Assembly (NCBI RefSeq): GCF_937129525.1
Contig: NZ_CAKZNK010000022.1
Coordinates: 1-51,931 of the forward strand
DNA length: 51,931 nt
Direction: 5' to 3'
Source of the DNA: an uncultured Chloroflexus sp.
GTDB taxonomy: Bacteria > Chloroflexota > Chloroflexia > Chloroflexales > Chloroflexaceae
The stretch's first letter is position 1, and each line of letters starts with the position of its first letter. The position numbers and the translations under genes are program-made. This document shows, one piece after another, positions 1-5,977 of the stretch. The notes below the pieces were generated by a model. That model was not told where the DNA came from. It did not search any database and was given only the letters and a program-made list of their open reading frames with translations.

Positions 1-255
1 ATTCCGGTCATCAGGTTGGGTGTCATCGCGGTAACGATTGGCTCGTTCATCGTTGTCAGGAGAGATGATGCCTGGAATGCGTTGTTGGTCGTTGCCAGTC
101 AAGCTGGTTGGCTGAACAGTCGGCTTGCGTTGAGCTTGTGATAACGACGTAGCTTCTAACCAATGAGCGGCGACGTTGCCACCAAATACGATCAACAATC
201 CCAAACTTACGGCCAGCGCAACCGGGATCAAGCGAGTGTAGCGTTGCGAATTCAT
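1..255 (-). CDS. N-terminal part of a membrane-anchored or secreted protein, cut by the window edge
   Basis: An open frame of 85 codons runs leftward from an ATG at 253-255 to the window edge without a stop. The start is preceded by a good ribosome site (AAGGGGAATGAC before ATG). The protein begins MNSQRYTRLIPVALAVSLGL and continues with LIVFGGNVAAHW, giving a short basic N-terminus and one hydrophobic segment at about residues 9-30, so a signal peptide or an N-terminal membrane anchor. After that comes a polar, Gln/Asp/Arg-rich linker (about residues 35-85), typical of the stretch before an extracytoplasmic domain. The functional domain lies outside the window, so no family can be named. Base composition and the ribosome site make it a convincing real gene. 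Confidence 0.75.
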   Translation of the reverse strand, partial: MNSQRYTRLIPVALAVSLGLLIVFGGNVAAHWLEATSLSQAQRKPTVQPTSLTGNDQQRIPGIISPDNDERANRYRDDTQPDDRN

Positions 256-464: not shown

Positions 465-2606
465 CTACGGTTGGAACGGCTGCGGGGCAGGAATGGTAGC
501 CGGATCAACATCACCGCTGACCGGATCGACACCGGTCGTCAATTCACCCCTGGTCAATGCGACAAGGATCTCTTCCATGCGACGCTTGACCGCATCGGGC
601 ACGACGCTGGCCGTGTCGTGGTAATCGGCGTAGCCGATACCGCCGTTGGCTGCCTCATACATGGCGATGCCGTTGCCCTTGAAGGTGCCGTTGACGACAG
701 CCTTAATCTGGTCGTACACGGCGACATCGACCCGCTTGATAGCCGAGGAGAGGATCTTGTCGGCGCCGGGGGCGGAGCCGTTGGCGAAGGTGGTCACGTA
801 CTCGTCCTGGTCAACGCCGATGACGTAGACGCCGCGGGCGGCAGCTTCTTTGATAGCGCCCGAACCGGTGGGGCCGCCAGCGCCGAAGATGACATCAGCG
901 CCGTCGCCGATCATCTGCTGCGCCGTGCTGGCGCCAAGGGCAGGGTCGATGAAGGTGGGCAGATAGACGCCGAGCAGGTTAATGTCCGGCTTGACGAAGC
1001 GAGCGCCGTTATCGAAGGCATTCTTGAAGCGCTTGACCGGCGGGATCTCAACCCCGGCAACCACGCCGACGGTGCCGGTCTGGGTCATCATACCGGCCAG
1101 GGCGCCAGCCAGGAAGCCGGCCTGGTCTTCGCGGAACTGCAAGCCGACCAGATTGTCGGTGACGGTGCCCGGCTCGTAGAACTGGTCAACACCGATGAAG
1201 ATCACGTCGGGATGCTCGGCAGCAAACTTCTTGGTGGCATCGGCAATCAGGAAGCCGACGGTAACGATGACATCGAAACCCTCATCGATGAAGGTCTGAA
1301 TATTCTTTTCGTAATCAGCCTGGGCCTGGGTCTCGATGTACTTGTACTCCAGCCCAAACTCTTGCGCGGCTCGCAATGCGCCGAGGTGGGCAAACTCGTT
1401 AAACGTCCCGTCGTTCACCTTCCCCAAATCGGTCACCAGCGCGATCCGGGGCAACTCGATCTCTGACGAGCGGAACGGCTGCGGGGCAGGAATGGTAGCC
1501 AGATCAACATCACCGCTGACCGGATCGACACCGGTCGTCAAAGTACCGTTGGTCAGTGCGGCAAGAATCTGCTCCATCCGCACCTTGACTTCAGCCGGCA
1601 CATCGTCAGCCGTGTCGTGGTAATCGGCGTAGCCGATACCGCCGTTGGCTGCCTCATACATGGCGATGCCGTTGCCCTTGAAGGTGCCGTTGACGACAGC
1701 CTTAATCTGGTCGTACACGGCGACATCGACCCGCTTGATAGCCGAGGAGAGGATCTTGTCGGCGCCGGGGGCGGAGCCGTTGGCGAAGGTGGTCACGTAC
1801 TCGTCCTGGTCAACGCCGATGACGTAGACGCCGCGGGCGGCAGCTTCTTTGATAGCGCCCGAACCGGTGGGGCCGCCAGCGCCGAAGATGACATCAGCGC
1901 CGTCGCCGATCATCTGCTGCGCCGTGCTGGCGCCAAGGGCAGGGTCGATGAAGGTGGGCAGATAGACGCCGAGCAGGTTAATGTCCGGCTTGACGAAGCG
2001 AGCGCCGTTATCGAAGGCATTCTTGAAGCGCTTGACCGGCGGGATCTCAACCCCGGCAACCACGCCGACGGTGCCGGTCTGGGTCATCATACCGGCCAGG
2101 GCGCCAGCCAGGAAGCCGGCCTGGTCTTCGCGGAACTGCAAGCCGACCAGATTGTCGGTGACGGTGCCCGGCTCGTAGAACTGGTCAACACCGATGAAGA
2201 TCACGTCGGGATGCTCGGCAGCAAACTTCTTGGTGGCATCGGCAATCAGGAAGCCGACGGTAACGATGACATCGAAACCCTCATCGATGAAGGTCTGAAT
2301 ATTCTTTTCGTAATCAGCCTGGGCCTGGGTCTCGATGTACTTGTACTCCAGCCCAAACTCTTGCGCGGCTCGCAATGCGCCGAGGTGGGCAAACTCGTTA
2401 AACGTCCCGTCGTTCACCTTCCCCAAATCGGTCACCAGCGCGATCCGGGGCTTACCAGAATCTGTTGCCGCAGTTGTGGGCGTAGCAGCCGGCGCGGCGG
2501 TGGGCGCCGGCGTGGCAGTCGGTTGTGCCGCAGGCTGACCACATGCAGCCAGCATCGGCACAAGTAGCGCAAACAGCGCTACCAGCATTGAGAGAGTCTT
2601 TCGCAT
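465..2606 (-). CDS. BMP/PnrA-family nucleoside-binding lipoprotein with two tandem binding domains
   Basis: Predicted extracytoplasmic substrate-binding lipoprotein, probably for a purine-nucleoside ABC importer (BMP/Med/PnrA family). The start at 2606 is chosen over an upstream frame start because it gives a proper lipoprotein signal (MRKTLSMLVALFALLVPMLAAC, lipobox LAAC with Cys22) and is preceded by AGGAGAAGGCGAC. After a Pro/Ala/Thr linker come two complete BMP domains. Each begins PRIALVTDLGKVNDGTFNE, the family's ligand-loop region, and contains a GVDQ motif. The protein is 713 aa, about twice the usual family length. Domain 1 and domain 2 are identical over about 280 residues and differ only in the last about 45 residues of each unit. 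No ABC permease or ATPase gene is adjacent in the window, so the transporter partner is elsewhere or to the left. Substrate is inferred from the family only. Confidence 0.88.
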   Translation of the reverse strand: MRKTLSMLVALFALLVPMLAACGQPAAQPTATPAPTAAPAATPTTAATDSGKPRIALVTDLGKVNDGTFNEFAHLGALRAAQEFGLEYKYIETQAQADYEKNIQTFIDEGFDVIVTVGFLIADATKKFAAEHPDVIFIGVDQFYEPGTVTDNLVGLQFREDQAGFLAGALAGMMTQTGTVGVVAGVEIPPVKRFKNAFDNGARFVKPDINLLGVYLPTFIDPALGASTAQQMIGDGADVIFGAGGPTGSGAIKEAAARGVYVIGVDQDEYVTTFANGSAPGADKILSSAIKRVDVAVYDQIKAVVNGTFKGNGIAMYEAANGGIGYADYHDTADDVPAEVKVRMEQILAALTNGTLTTGVDPVSGDVDLATIPAPQPFRSSEIELPRIALVTDLGKVNDGTFNEFAHLGALRAAQEFGLEYKYIETQAQADYEKNIQTFIDEGFDVIVTVGFLIADATKKFAAEHPDVIFIGVDQFYEPGTVTDNLVGLQFREDQAGFLAGALAGMMTQTGTVGVVAGVEIPPVKRFKNAFDNGARFVKPDINLLGVYLPTFIDPALGASTAQQMIGDGADVIFGAGGPTGSGAIKEAAARGVYVIGVDQDEYVTTFANGSAPGADKILSSAIKRVDVAVYDQIKAVVNGTFKGNGIAMYEAANGGIGYADYHDTASVVPDAVKRRMEEILVALTRGELTTGVDPVSGDVDPATIPAPQPFQP
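610..1452 (-). repeat. Direct repeat copy encoding the second BMP domain
   Basis: This 843-bp segment matches 1609-2451 at an offset of exactly 999 bp. I found no mismatch by eye, and frames on both strands translate identically in the two copies. Identity stops sharply at both ends, where the flanking coding sequence differs at many positions. Confidence 0.9.
1609..2451 (-). repeat. Direct repeat copy encoding the first BMP domain
   Basis: Partner of 610-1452 (offset 999 bp = 333 codons, so the repeat preserves the reading frame). Between the copies, at 1453-1608, sits the diverged tail of domain 1 and the short linker. Confidence 0.9.
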
Positions 2607-2803
2607 GTCGCCTTCTCCTGATCTACAACGATCGGATCCTTGCAGAAGCGCCATGGGGCGCGCATGGCCCTTCTGTTGTTGACGCGCTCGTTAATGCGTC
2701 CGGTCATTTGCGAGTCGGCGCGATTATAGCATATTTGGCGCAACCTTATCAGAGCGAATGCGTATGATATAATGAGAGCATCGAGTACCGGAGAGGGATA
2801 GCT
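2607..2803. promoter_or_regulatory. Divergent promoter region between the BMP gene and the SPFH operon
   Basis: The region is AT-rich around 2720-2775. On the minus strand TATAAT lies at 2728-2723 and could be the -10 box of the BMP gene, though no good -35 is seen. On the plus strand TTATCA (2746-2751), a 16-bp spacer and TATAAT (2768-2773) form a good sigma-70-type promoter pointing at the SPFH genes. Boxes were found by eye. Confidence 0.5.
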
Positions 2804-2941
2804 ATGGAGATTTCTCTTACGAATGCGATAGATGCGCTATCATTGGCCTCCATTGCATACCGGAGAAGGCATTCTGACTCCTGGATAATGATAACACTCC
2901 AGGTCACGGCAGTTGCAACTTGCGCGAGTTCACTGCACTGA
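2804..2941 (+). CDS. Possible small ORF (45 aa) ahead of the SPFH pair
   Basis: An ATG at 2804 preceded by GGAGAGGGATAGCT opens a 46-codon frame (MEISLTNAIDALSLASIAYR at the start) that ends at 2941, 59 bp before the first SPFH gene. It sits about 30 bp downstream of the best promoter in the region, so it would be the first translated frame of that transcript. I do not recognise the product. It could be a leader peptide, a small membrane-associated protein or chance. The rest of 2607-3000 holds no other convincing gene. Confidence 0.22.
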   Translation: MEISLTNAIDALSLASIAYRRRHSDSWIMITLQVTAVATCASSLH

Positions 2942-3000
2942 TGCCGTGAACTCTTTCGTTTGTAGTTCATAGGTTCACTCAAAGCAGGTGAGGAGGGTCT

Positions 3001-3990
3001 ATGTCGGTACCATTGGGAATTGCGCTTGGGTTGCTGGCCTGGTTTATCGTTCGTTACATCGCATTTAGTTTCTACACCGTTGATCAAAACGAGCGAGCCG
3101 TTGTCACCAGTTTTGGTAAGGCCAAACGGATGCCAGGGCCGCCGGCAGAAGATCCATTTGCCGAATACTTGCGCCCTGAGGAGCGTGAGCGGTATCGCTA
3201 TCCGCAGGTGCAGGTCATTCCACCTGGCGGACCTTACTTCAAGTGGCCTTGGGAACGGGTCTACAAGGTATCAATTGCGACCCAGACGATCAATATGGCG
3301 CTTGATCTGGAAGACCCGACGGCTAATCAGGGTGGGCGAATCCTGGAAGCGGTAACCAAAGATCAGCTCAATGTTGGCCTGAAAGGGCAGATCCGTTATC
3401 GCGTTTCCGAGCGGCATCTCTACGCCTACCTGTTTGGCGTAAAGAATCCGGTCGTGCATGTGATGGGCTATTTCATCTCGATTTTGCGCGAACGGATTGC
3501 CAATTTTTCTGCGCCGGCCAGCGATACGGGCAAGTTGGCCACGATGTCGGGCGATAGCGCCGAAGTCAGTGGGGTTTCGATCAACGATCTGCGCAAGAAC
3601 CTGCGCGATCTCAACGAGCTGATGGATCGCGAGTGTCTATCGTCGGCAGCGCGCTATGGCATCATTCTCGATGCGTCGCTGATCACCGAAATCGACGCGC
3701 CGCCAGAGGTCGAGTCGGCGATGGCCGCAATCAACACTGCCCACAATCAGGTCTCATCAGACATCAGTCTGGCCCAGGCCGCTGCCGATCAGAAGATCGT
3801 GCAGTCGAAGCGAGCGGTCGAGATCGAGACCTTGAAGGTTCAGGCCGAGGTTGAACCGTTGCTGGCGCTGGCCGAGCAGTTGCGCGCGTTAAAGACGAAC
3901 GGTTCGGATGCATTGCAGGCCTATCTGCGCAATGTTCGGTTAGGGCTTTACCAGCAGGCCGAGCGAGTGATTATGGAGGTAGAGCAATGA
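3001..3990 (+). CDS. SPFH/band-7 domain membrane protein (first of a pair)
   Basis: Prohibitin/HflK-like membrane scaffold protein of 329 aa. ATG at 3001 follows GGTGAGGAGGGTCT, a strong ribosome site. An N-terminal membrane segment (about residues 4-26, LGIALGLLAWFIVRYIAF) is followed directly by the SPFH start YTVDQNERAVVTSFGK, the band-7 signature for a protein facing one side of the membrane. The SPFH domain covers about residues 27-250, and a helical Ala/Glu/Gln-rich tail (about 235-329) would form the coiled coil for oligomerisation. An insertion rich in Pro and charged residues (about 43-75) is unlike classical HflK. The gene overlaps the next SPFH gene by ATGA, so the two are coupled, as in HflK-HflC. 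No protease or NfeD gene is adjacent. Role inferred: membrane-domain organisation or protease control. Confidence 0.82.
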   Translation: MSVPLGIALGLLAWFIVRYIAFSFYTVDQNERAVVTSFGKAKRMPGPPAEDPFAEYLRPEERERYRYPQVQVIPPGGPYFKWPWERVYKVSIATQTINMALDLEDPTANQGGRILEAVTKDQLNVGLKGQIRYRVSERHLYAYLFGVKNPVVHVMGYFISILRERIANFSAPASDTGKLATMSGDSAEVSGVSINDLRKNLRDLNELMDRECLSSAARYGIILDASLITEIDAPPEVESAMAAINTAHNQVSSDISLAQAAADQKIVQSKRAVEIETLKVQAEVEPLLALAEQLRALKTNGSDALQAYLRNVRLGLYQQAERVIMEVEQ

Positions 3991-4895
3991 CGTTCATGCT
4001 CTCAACAATAACGGTTGCTGCAATCACATTTGTTCTGGCATTCATTCTCGTGCCCATCTTTTTCGGTCTGCTCCGCGGGCTTGGTTTCTACACCATCGTG
4101 CATGAAGGCACATGTCACGTCTATACCCTCTTCGGTAGCGTGATTGGCGTCTTGCGCGAGCCGGGGCTGGTCATTCTACCCTTCCATCTTGGTGTTAATG
4201 CCTTCCTGATCGGCCTGTTCGGTCGGCGCTATGTCGTTGACATACGACTCGACCAGCGCTATCTGCGCAGCCTGCCGGTCAATTCGGAAGAGGGTGCGCC
4301 TATGGGCATCGGTGTCTGGTATGAAATGTCGATCAGCGATCCAGTGGCCTTTTTGTTCAAGAATGCTGATCCGCAGGGATCGCTGGCGGCAAATGTGAGC
4401 AACGCTGTGGTGCGCACTCTGAGCAATATGCCACTATCCGAGATGCTGGAAAACCGACACGCGATGAGCCAGGCGGTGCGCGCGGAGGTGTCACCAAAAG
4501 CAGCCGATTGGGGGTATCGACTGGGATCGGTCTACATCCGCAAAGTTCACTTCCGTGATCTGAACATGATCCGGCAAATCGAGGCGAAAGTGGTCAACCG
4601 GCTCCGCCAGGTTACCTCGGCAATCCTGCAAGACGGCGCCAACCGGGTGAATGTTATTACCAGCGCGGCTGAGCGGCAGGCGGCAATCGAGTTTGCGCGC
4701 GCGAAGGCAGTGCGGCCACGCATCTTAGGGCAGGCATTGGCCAGAATCGGCGCCGATCCTGAAGTGCGTGATGCGCTGTTTACTATTCTCGAGCTGCAAA
4801 ACCTGACGGAGAGCAAGGCGAGAGTAACGTTGGTGCCGGCGCAAACTGACAGCCGGATCATCCCTGCATTGATGGCATCACGAGACGGGCGGTGA
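3987..4895 (+). CDS. SPFH/band-7 domain membrane protein (second of a pair)
   Basis: Second SPFH-type protein (302 aa), starting inside the last codons of the upstream gene through an ATGA overlap at 3987-3990. The N-terminus (about residues 5-35) is strongly hydrophobic, ending in FFGLLRGLGFYTIVHEGTCH, where the band-7 domain starts. The middle part (about 60-200) keeps the band-7 layout, with LGSVYIRKVHFRD near the end of the domain, and the C-terminal third is helical (ANRVNVITSAAERQAAIEFA). It is clearly diverged from its partner, so this is an old hetero-pair rather than a recent duplicate. The likely partner is the 329-aa protein upstream in a hetero-oligomeric membrane ring. No catalytic residues are expected in this family. 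Transcription probably ends at the hairpin at 4954-4977. Confidence 0.8.
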   Translation: MTFMLSTITVAAITFVLAFILVPIFFGLLRGLGFYTIVHEGTCHVYTLFGSVIGVLREPGLVILPFHLGVNAFLIGLFGRRYVVDIRLDQRYLRSLPVNSEEGAPMGIGVWYEMSISDPVAFLFKNADPQGSLAANVSNAVVRTLSNMPLSEMLENRHAMSQAVRAEVSPKAADWGYRLGSVYIRKVHFRDLNMIRQIEAKVVNRLRQVTSAILQDGANRVNVITSAAERQAAIEFARAKAVRPRILGQALARIGADPEVRDALFTILELQNLTESKARVTLVPAQTDSRIIPALMASRDGR

Positions 4896-4953
4896 TGAGG
4901 CTCGCGCCACCTGTTCGATTGAAGAGTAATTTCTGAACGATCGGCAGGTTAGG

Positions 4954-4990
4954 AGGGACGACAACGATGTCGTCCCTTAATCTAATTTTT
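4954..4990 (+). terminator. Intrinsic terminator of the SPFH operon
   Basis: A 9-bp perfect stem (AGGGACGAC at 4954-4962, GTCGTCCCT at 4969-4977) with a 6-nt loop is followed by TAATCTAATTTTT. It is a good rho-independent terminator, and its right arm overlaps the stop codon of the convergent antitoxin-like gene. Confidence 0.75.
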
Positions 4991-5195
4991 GGCTCTGCTC
5001 AGCCTGCATCGCCAGCGCGCGCAATCGCTCGAACAGCTCGACATTGAGCAAGACAGCCGATGGGTAGCCTTTCTGGGTAATAACGATTGGTTGTCCGCTA
5101 ACCTTTGCGCGGCGAATAAGGGCCGCCAGACTGGCTGCCGCTTGTGAGATCGGCACTACACCTCCCTGCAAGTCAATATTAATTGAGCGAGTCAT
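4977..5195 (-). CDS. Phd/YefM-family antitoxin-like protein without adjacent toxin
   Basis: Small DNA-binding protein of 72 aa resembling Phd/YefM antitoxins. The start at 5195 is chosen over an in-frame start 24 bp upstream because GGAGGAG lies 7 nt before it. The sequence shows the family pattern: an N-terminal strand (MTRSINIDLQGGVVPISQAA), a helix with AALIRRAKVSG, then QPIVITQKGYPSAVLLNVELFERL, which matches the family's PVVVTxxGxPxAVL block. In this family the N-terminal half binds operator DNA and the C-terminal tail blocks the toxin. No toxin frame lies between the stop (4977) and the SPFH operon end (4895), nor within 300 bp upstream. It may be a solitary antitoxin, a remnant, or a regulator. 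Confidence 0.78.
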   Translation of the reverse strand: MTRSINIDLQGGVVPISQAAASLAALIRRAKVSGQPIVITQKGYPSAVLLNVELFERLRALAMQAEQSQKLD

Positions 5196-5237
5196 GTTTG
5201 CTCTCCTCCGCGTTAGCACTGGTGATAGTGTATTTGC

Positions 5238-5266
5238 ATTGTAGCACGTTGTATTCTTTCTGTATA
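5238..5266 (-). promoter_or_regulatory. Predicted promoter of the antitoxin-like gene
   Basis: On the minus strand TATACA (5266-5261), a 17-bp spacer and TACAAT (5243-5238) lie about 43 bp before the start codon. Each box matches the sigma-70 consensus at 4-5 of 6 positions. Confidence 0.5.
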
Positions 5267-5545
5267 GTCTGGGGTTTGACCCGCTTTATCTTACTCATTA
5301 TGACACTTATGTGTATTTGATATGTCAGTTTCTATAATGGAACAGATCCGATACAGGATTATTGTCTGAGCGTGGTACTATATCCTCGATAAACAAATAG
5401 TCGTCTCCGCTGTTAACGCAAACACAGACAGAGTTTTAATACTCTGCCAACGCCTTTCTAACAATCGTCTGCTAAGGTATAGCCAGGCTCAAATGAGAGC
5501 GCGATGAAATAAGAGAACAATCACGATGATGCAAGGAGGACGACT
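5267..5545. other. AT-rich intergenic region upstream of the small heat-shock gene
   Basis: No gene is seen on either strand. A TATAAT box at 5333-5338 could drive the heat-shock gene with a leader of about 200 nt, but no well-spaced -35 was found. A small inverted repeat (CAGAG ... CTCTG near 5430-5448) is present. I looked for the CIRCE heat-shock operator and did not find it. Confidence 0.4.
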
Positions 5546-5977
5546 ATGACGAACATCACCCGCTGGGATCCCTTCCGCGAGATGACTCAACTGCTCGATG
5601 ACACCTTCTTCACCGGTTTCACCGGTGTGCTGCCCCGCAATGGCAGCCTGGTGCCGGCGCTCGATCTGAGCGAGACGGCAGATGCCTATCACGTCGAAAT
5701 GGCGGTGCCCGGCATGACTGCTGATCAACTCAACATCACCTTCGAGAACAATGTGCTGACGATCAGCGGCGAAATTACGCAGAGCAGCGATCGTAAGGAT
5801 CGCCAATATCACGTCACCGAGCGCCGCTACGGTCGCTTCAGCCGCAGCATCCGCCTGCCCAATCAGATCCATCCGGATCGGATTGAGGCTCGGCTTGAGA
5901 ACGGTGTGCTGACGGTAACAGTACCGAAGGCTGAAGAGATCAAGCCGCGCAAGATTGCAGTCAATGTCGCTCACTAG
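5546..5977 (+). CDS. Small heat-shock protein (Hsp20/alpha-crystallin family)
   Basis: ATP-independent chaperone of 143 aa that holds unfolding proteins in the cytoplasm. ATG at 5546 follows GCAAGGAGGACGACT. The N-terminus ITRWDPFREMTQLLDDTF is typical of bacterial class-A Hsp20 proteins. The alpha-crystallin domain spans about residues 36-132, with VPALDLSETADAYHVEMAVPG at its start, the strand LNITFENNVLTISGE, and the hallmark near the end LENGVLTVTVPKAEE (the A-x-x-n-GVL motif). The C-terminal IxI/V-type anchor is represented by RKIAVNVAH. Length and domain order are normal. The gene stands alone with its own terminator. A heat-shock operator was not identified. Confidence 0.95.
   Translation: MTNITRWDPFREMTQLLDDTFFTGFTGVLPRNGSLVPALDLSETADAYHVEMAVPGMTADQLNITFENNVLTISGEITQSSDRKDRQYHVTERRYGRFSRSIRLPNQIHPDRIEARLENGVLTVTVPKAEEIKPRKIAVNVAH

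Follow-up and report, generated by a model that had tools for sequence, protein, structure and literature searches.

Probable intragenic gene conversion between the two domains of a tandem Bmp-type lipoprotein in Chloroflexus

Among bacterial paralogues, gene conversion is established for tufA/tufB and 25 other genes (PMC6053082), and partial conversion between RF1 and RF2, including an RF1-to-RF2 case in Chloroflexi, is described in the accessible part of PMC4530459. Tandem substrate-binding domains are known from GlnPQ of Lactococcus lactis (PMC8025302). Here we describe a lipoprotein gene whose nearest solved structures are Lbp, PnrA/TmpC, BmpA, and BmpD, and in which both themes appear to meet. 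A literature search for published work on this two-domain gene gave nothing specific.

We analyzed a stretch of 51,931 nucleotides (the window) from an uncultured Chloroflexus sp., a photosynthetic bacterium whose genome (G000) is a 4.48 Mb draft in 157 contigs. Located 465 bp from the end of its contig, the gene encodes a first and a second domain, D1 and D2 (Table 1). Its product scores 410 bits with the PF02608 profile against a curated cut-off of 24.1 (E 5.7e-123), in two stretches that cover both domains. The extent of the gene holds if translation starts at the ATG at 2606, ahead of MRKTLSML...LAAC. The sequence LVPMLAAC was read directly off the translation, and from general knowledge of the motif we take it to be a lipobox. 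For comparison, we used eight Chloroflexus genomes including that of the window, three of which (G003, G004, and G006) are single-contig.

Table 1 Features of the two-domain gene in the window (strand -, positions of the window)
Feature	Position	Strand	Basis
Two-domain Bmp/PnrA-like lipoprotein gene, 713 aa	465..2606	-	ORF list, PF02608 profile
Signal peptide, lipobox LAAC (MRKTLSMLVALFALLVPMLAAC)	2540..2606	-	Read off translation
D1 core, 843 bp, same as D2 core; putative donor	1609..2451	-	
D2 core, 843 bp, probably overwritten with D1 sequence	610..1452	-	
D1 diverged patch, D1-type tail, PAEVKVRMEQILAALTNG	1542..1608	-	
D2 diverged patch, D2-type tail, PDAVKRRMEEILVALTRG, apparently surviving original D2 sequence	543..609	-	
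D2 terminal 70 bp, 1 mismatch vs 1472-1541	473..542	-	
D1 terminal 70 bp, partner of 473-542	1472..1541	-	
Interdomain linker, no homology to leader upstream of D1	1453..1471	-	

When the window was aligned against itself at an offset of 999 bp, 610–1452 and 1609–2451 were identical base by base, with zero mismatches over 843 bp, as the original prediction had stated for the two domains. That prediction also had about 150 bp beside each copy differing at many sites; this is true of a 67-bp patch (543–609, 26 of 67 sites different from the partner), whereas the next 70 bp (473–542) differ at only one of 70 sites. Its sharp edge of identity is real at 609/610, the only true edge inside homologous sequence and hence the informative one. 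The edge at 1452/1453 and 2451/2452, by contrast, is merely the end of the duplicated unit, with no change of identity within homologous sequence, because linker and leader are non-homologous (in four genomes they are 28–33% identical over 60 nt). Were the differences scattered at random along the 979 aligned sites, they would all fall at one end with a probability of about 1e-22. The run length of the 843-bp tract was reached in 0 of 20,000 permutations, whether all sites or genus-variable sites were used; the permutation p is ≤5e-5 in G000 and G006, and 0.04 in G003, which has few differences overall.

Protein-level constraint cannot account for the identity of the cores, because none of the 149 fourfold-degenerate sites differs between D1 and D2 in the window core, as against 58/139 in G001, 33/139 in G002, 45/138 in G004, and 37/140 in G007 (24–42%), sister species whose copies are unconverted; in orthologous comparisons with the window, 34–53% of such sites differ. 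In the terminal 70 bp, 0/14 fourfold sites differ in the window and 2–7 of 14–15 in the unconverted species; 473–542 may be another conversion patch of smaller size. By the rule of three, an 843-site tract free of differences implies, at the 95% level, that no more than about 0.36% divergence has accumulated since the event, against a core divergence of about 10% between the window and its nearest sister, and the homogenization therefore appears recent relative to the divergence of the species.

The two-domain gene was found at the 999-bp offset in all eight members of the genus; the contig of G005 stops inside D2, which leaves seven complete loci. Since the tandem occurs at the same offset in every genome, including the three single-contig ones, the duplication of the 999-bp unit is older than the radiation of the genus Chloroflexus and not a product of assembly. 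Identity between D1 and D2 within a genome varies widely: 97.3% in the window (100% in the core), 98.1% in G003, 95.2% in G006, 88.3% in G002, and 86.0–87.1% in G001, G004, and G007. In the four species with both domains complete and unconverted, D1 and D2 are thus 86–88% identical and carry position-specific residues.

The core tree joins the two copies of one genome in G000, G003, and G006, whereas in G001 and G007 each copy joins its counterpart at the same position (D1 with D1, D2 with D2). As a refuting outcome, the original prediction had named related species in which each copy is closer to its orthologous position than to its partner; G001 and G007 behave in this way and G000, G003, and G006 do not, and the split favors conversion over recent duplication. 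In the tail tree, which has moderate support and mostly weak forks because it rests on 138 sites, the window D1 joins D1 of G001, G002, G004, G005, and G007 (93/95) and the window D2 falls outside. At ten amino acid positions of the core, D1 is distinguished from D2 throughout the five less homogenized species (20, 55, 189, 219, 224, 226, 232, 233, 235, and 238). The window D2 is D1-type at nine of these ten, site 55 being I, the D2 letter, in both window copies, and D2-type at all four diagnostic tail sites (286, 287, 290, and 294). Nearly all D2-specific core differences are gone from G003. In G006, which has two separate homogenized patches (154–344 and 571–902), M189 alone among the diagnostic sites still marks D2.

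From the tree groupings and the D2-type tail, we infer an ancestral duplication followed by homogenization of the core from D1 to D2; by its residues, D1 would be the donor and D2 the recipient in the window's species. The conversion of the central part proposed in the original prediction is thus supported by the trees and by the D1-type diagnostic sites in D2. In our preferred reading, to which we give a probability of roughly 85%, an ancestral two-domain lipoprotein of the nucleoside-binding type recently had its D2 core overwritten by D1 through intragenic gene conversion. The 999-bp unit would have been duplicated before the genus radiated, giving two tandem binding domains that then diverged and gained position-specific residues. 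Non-reciprocal homologous recombination between the domains, on sister chromosomes or within one chromosome, would later have copied D1 into D2, making the 843-bp block of D2 exactly D1 and leaving the tail D2-type. Separate, similar events with other tract limits presumably took place in the G003 and G006 lineages. The product would be a nucleoside-binding lipoprotein of the ABC-importer type that resembles PnrA/BmpA and carries two binding domains one after the other.

That both window cores are D1-type fits an unchanged donor, but two unequal crossovers between sister chromosomes, taking the gene from two to three and back to two domains, would have swapped the D2 core for that of D1 without classical conversion and led to an identical gene. 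Direct repeats spaced by 999 bp lend themselves well to such exchange. However, each of the seven complete loci has exactly two domains at the 999-bp offset, alleles with one or three domains did not occur among them, and the two separate patches of G006 are easier to obtain through short conversion tracts. We therefore consider this route improbable, though the best of the alternatives. It is considerably less likely still that a short-read assembler copied or merged a repeat consensus and that the identity, or the tandem itself, is absent from the cell. The fragmented state of the draft, the position of the gene near a contig end, and the break of one sister MAG contig (G005) inside D2 would all suit such an error, and window copies truly 98–99% alike could have been merged into one consensus. 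Merging could, however, turn about 99% into 100%, not erase a divergence of 12–14%. Moreover, the same tandem is present in three single-contig genomes, two of which are homogenized likewise (G003 and G006); the window D2 has kept its own tail, and its downstream neighbor matches that of a sister species; and no third copy or orphan D2-type core is present elsewhere in the 157 contigs of the G000 assembly. The original prediction, which had judged an artefact unlikely, is upheld on this point, as it is on the unlikelihood of a recent duplication: a tandem duplication confined to the window's species would explain the 100% identity of the core, but it is ruled out by the tandem at the same offset in all eight genus members and by the D1- and D2-type tails kept in the window's gene. 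Intragenic conversion thus remains our preferred reading.

What the homogenized domains bind can be approached through the pocket. Mapped through BmpA, nine positions of the pocket region show the same residue in every copy; F17, F142, F167, A191, V213, D214, and K239 show no variation. Because the nucleoside-pocket set of two stacking Phe, plus an Asp and a Lys on the ribose side, is present in both domains, a nucleoside is our best guess for the ligand of both, and the two pockets of the window's protein probably bind the same one. Two identical pockets would raise local capture capacity rather than widen the substrate range. The mixed-substrate binding envisaged in the original prediction is accordingly less plausible in the window's species, where the pockets are identical, and more plausible in the unconverted ones.

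Such a second specificity could reside in one part of the domain. In G001, G002, G004, and G007, we compared the fourfold divergence between D1 and D2 with the between-species level. Over domain bp 0–540 it lies below that level (ratios of 0.76, 0.45, and 0.55 in successive thirds), whereas bp 540–723 (1.09) and bp 840–906 (1.20) are at it; bp 540–723 differ from bp 0–540 with a pooled Fisher p of 2e-8, significant individually in three of the four species. Because this 183-bp segment was picked after the positions of the D2-specific residues had been seen, the sites are non-independent across species, and one between-species comparison (D2 of G002 and G004) itself gave a ratio of 1.95, we regard the escape of the segment, which surrounds the C-terminal lobe of the pocket, from homogenization in the unconverted species as a lead and not as proof. 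The segment (aa 181–241) carries the invariant pocket residues of that lobe (A191, V213, D214, and K239) together with most of the D2-specific substitutions, and beside the pocket positions D2 shows F189M, V219F, N224R/G, S226T, K232R, I233L, S235T, and I238L. Since minor changes by the conserved aromatic cradle are reported to tune, possibly, nucleoside preference among Bmp proteins (PMC13325309), a D2-specific ligand preference in the unconverted species is plausible by analogy, and the preference of D2 may have shifted in five sister species. Viewed post hoc, the pattern suggests that D2 evolved a preference of its own that conversion reset in the window's species. Tentatively, and with more doubt than confidence, we speculate that the tandem lipoprotein alternates over evolution between two states: a segment sheltered from conversion (bp 540–723), kept apart by selection rather than by chance, holds D2 to a second specificity, or a single conversion resets D2 to D1, as in the window's species.

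No permease or transporter gene adjoins the two-domain gene, so that the canonical ABC operon arrangement is absent; an operon with an ABC ATPase and two permeases marks that arrangement and not the PF02608 family itself. The neighbors in the window, named from their sequences, are an SPFH pair, Hsp20, and a dehydrogenase E1 subunit. The SPFH pair adjoins the Bmp gene in the sister loci checked, G001 having just a fragment of the first SPFH gene at its contig end, and an Hsp20 gene lies beyond the pair in the five loci that extend far enough. The canonical transporter of this kind in the window's genome is encoded on contig C29 (L075 2223–7133), with a Bmp-type lipoprotein, a double ATPase, and two permeases. 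The two-domain protein may feed this transporter or another. A permease pair on contig C63 was rejected as a partner: judged from the sequences, it is part of an ABC operon of the sugar type that includes a binding protein.

Downstream of the Bmp gene, window positions 1–254 encode the start of a secreted protein. The same protein in C. islandicus (L035 7528–8493) has many DDRGGDRDDGRGRGSDDTQP repeats; the window contig breaks off close to where this repeat region starts, and the repeats are likely the reason for the break. Also in C. islandicus, the product of L035 6095–7246, a gene adjoining the Bmp gene, contains multiple PNPSPTAEPGRGDGGxGG repeats; in the window, the Bmp gene and the gene of the secreted repeat protein leave no space between them for such a gene.

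Tandem Bmp domains also occur in three other genera of the family: L079 (G021:C9) 3516–5567, L080 (G023:C347) 1724–3741, and G016:C209 7560–9649. The spacing is 1035 bp in G021 and about 1029 bp in G023, and the frames of the G023 and G016 genes are broken inside a domain. In the tree, the G021 copies pair together on a long branch and the G023 copies pair together (86/91). With the copies pairing within each genome, common descent with the Chloroflexus tandem is doubtful; the tandems of these genera are probably separate duplications, though those of G021 and G023 may instead be older conversions. Domain 1 of L079 has, at aa 189–238, M189, F219, G224, and RLLTSA-type residues, as in Chloroflexus D2. 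In this different lineage, they reflect either convergence or an old state.

We conclude that the window's gene is a well-supported fresh case of a known process, gene conversion. It amounts to a natural experiment in which one gene, in eight species, has a D2 that is either diverged or reset, and in which donor and direction can be read off; it opens to direct test the question of whether a specialized binding site is lost when fused domains convert one another. It is also a warning that phylogenies and short-read assemblies are misled by such genes. Each of the elements is known already; their combination in one lipoprotein, with both states within one genus, is new to us. As in the concerted evolution of PMC6053082, likeness is greater within than between genomes, and the process is patchy, lineage-specific, and recurrent; the copies there are separate genes, whereas ours are domains within a single polypeptide, and neither transporters nor substrate-binding proteins turned up in a text search of that paper. 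The RF1/RF2 case, as given in the accessible part of PMC4530459, resembles ours in that part of a gene was converted, paralogue identity was kept outside the tract, and the phylum is the same; it differs in that RF1 and RF2 are separate genes whose functions are fixed and distinct, and in that the domain of shared function was the one converted. GlnPQ (PMC8025302) likewise has two substrate-binding domains per chain that are able to differ in specificity, but for another substrate class and fused to the transmembrane subunit, where our protein has a lipid anchor. PnrA/TmpC, BmpA, and BmpD (2FQW, 9Q1U, and 6SHU) are PF02608 lipoproteins like the present one and share its pocket residues (stacking F17 and F167, D214, and K239 in our numbering). 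They have one domain each, whereas here there are two, and PnrA, according to the accessible part of Deka 2006, is encoded within an ABC operon, unlike the gene described here.
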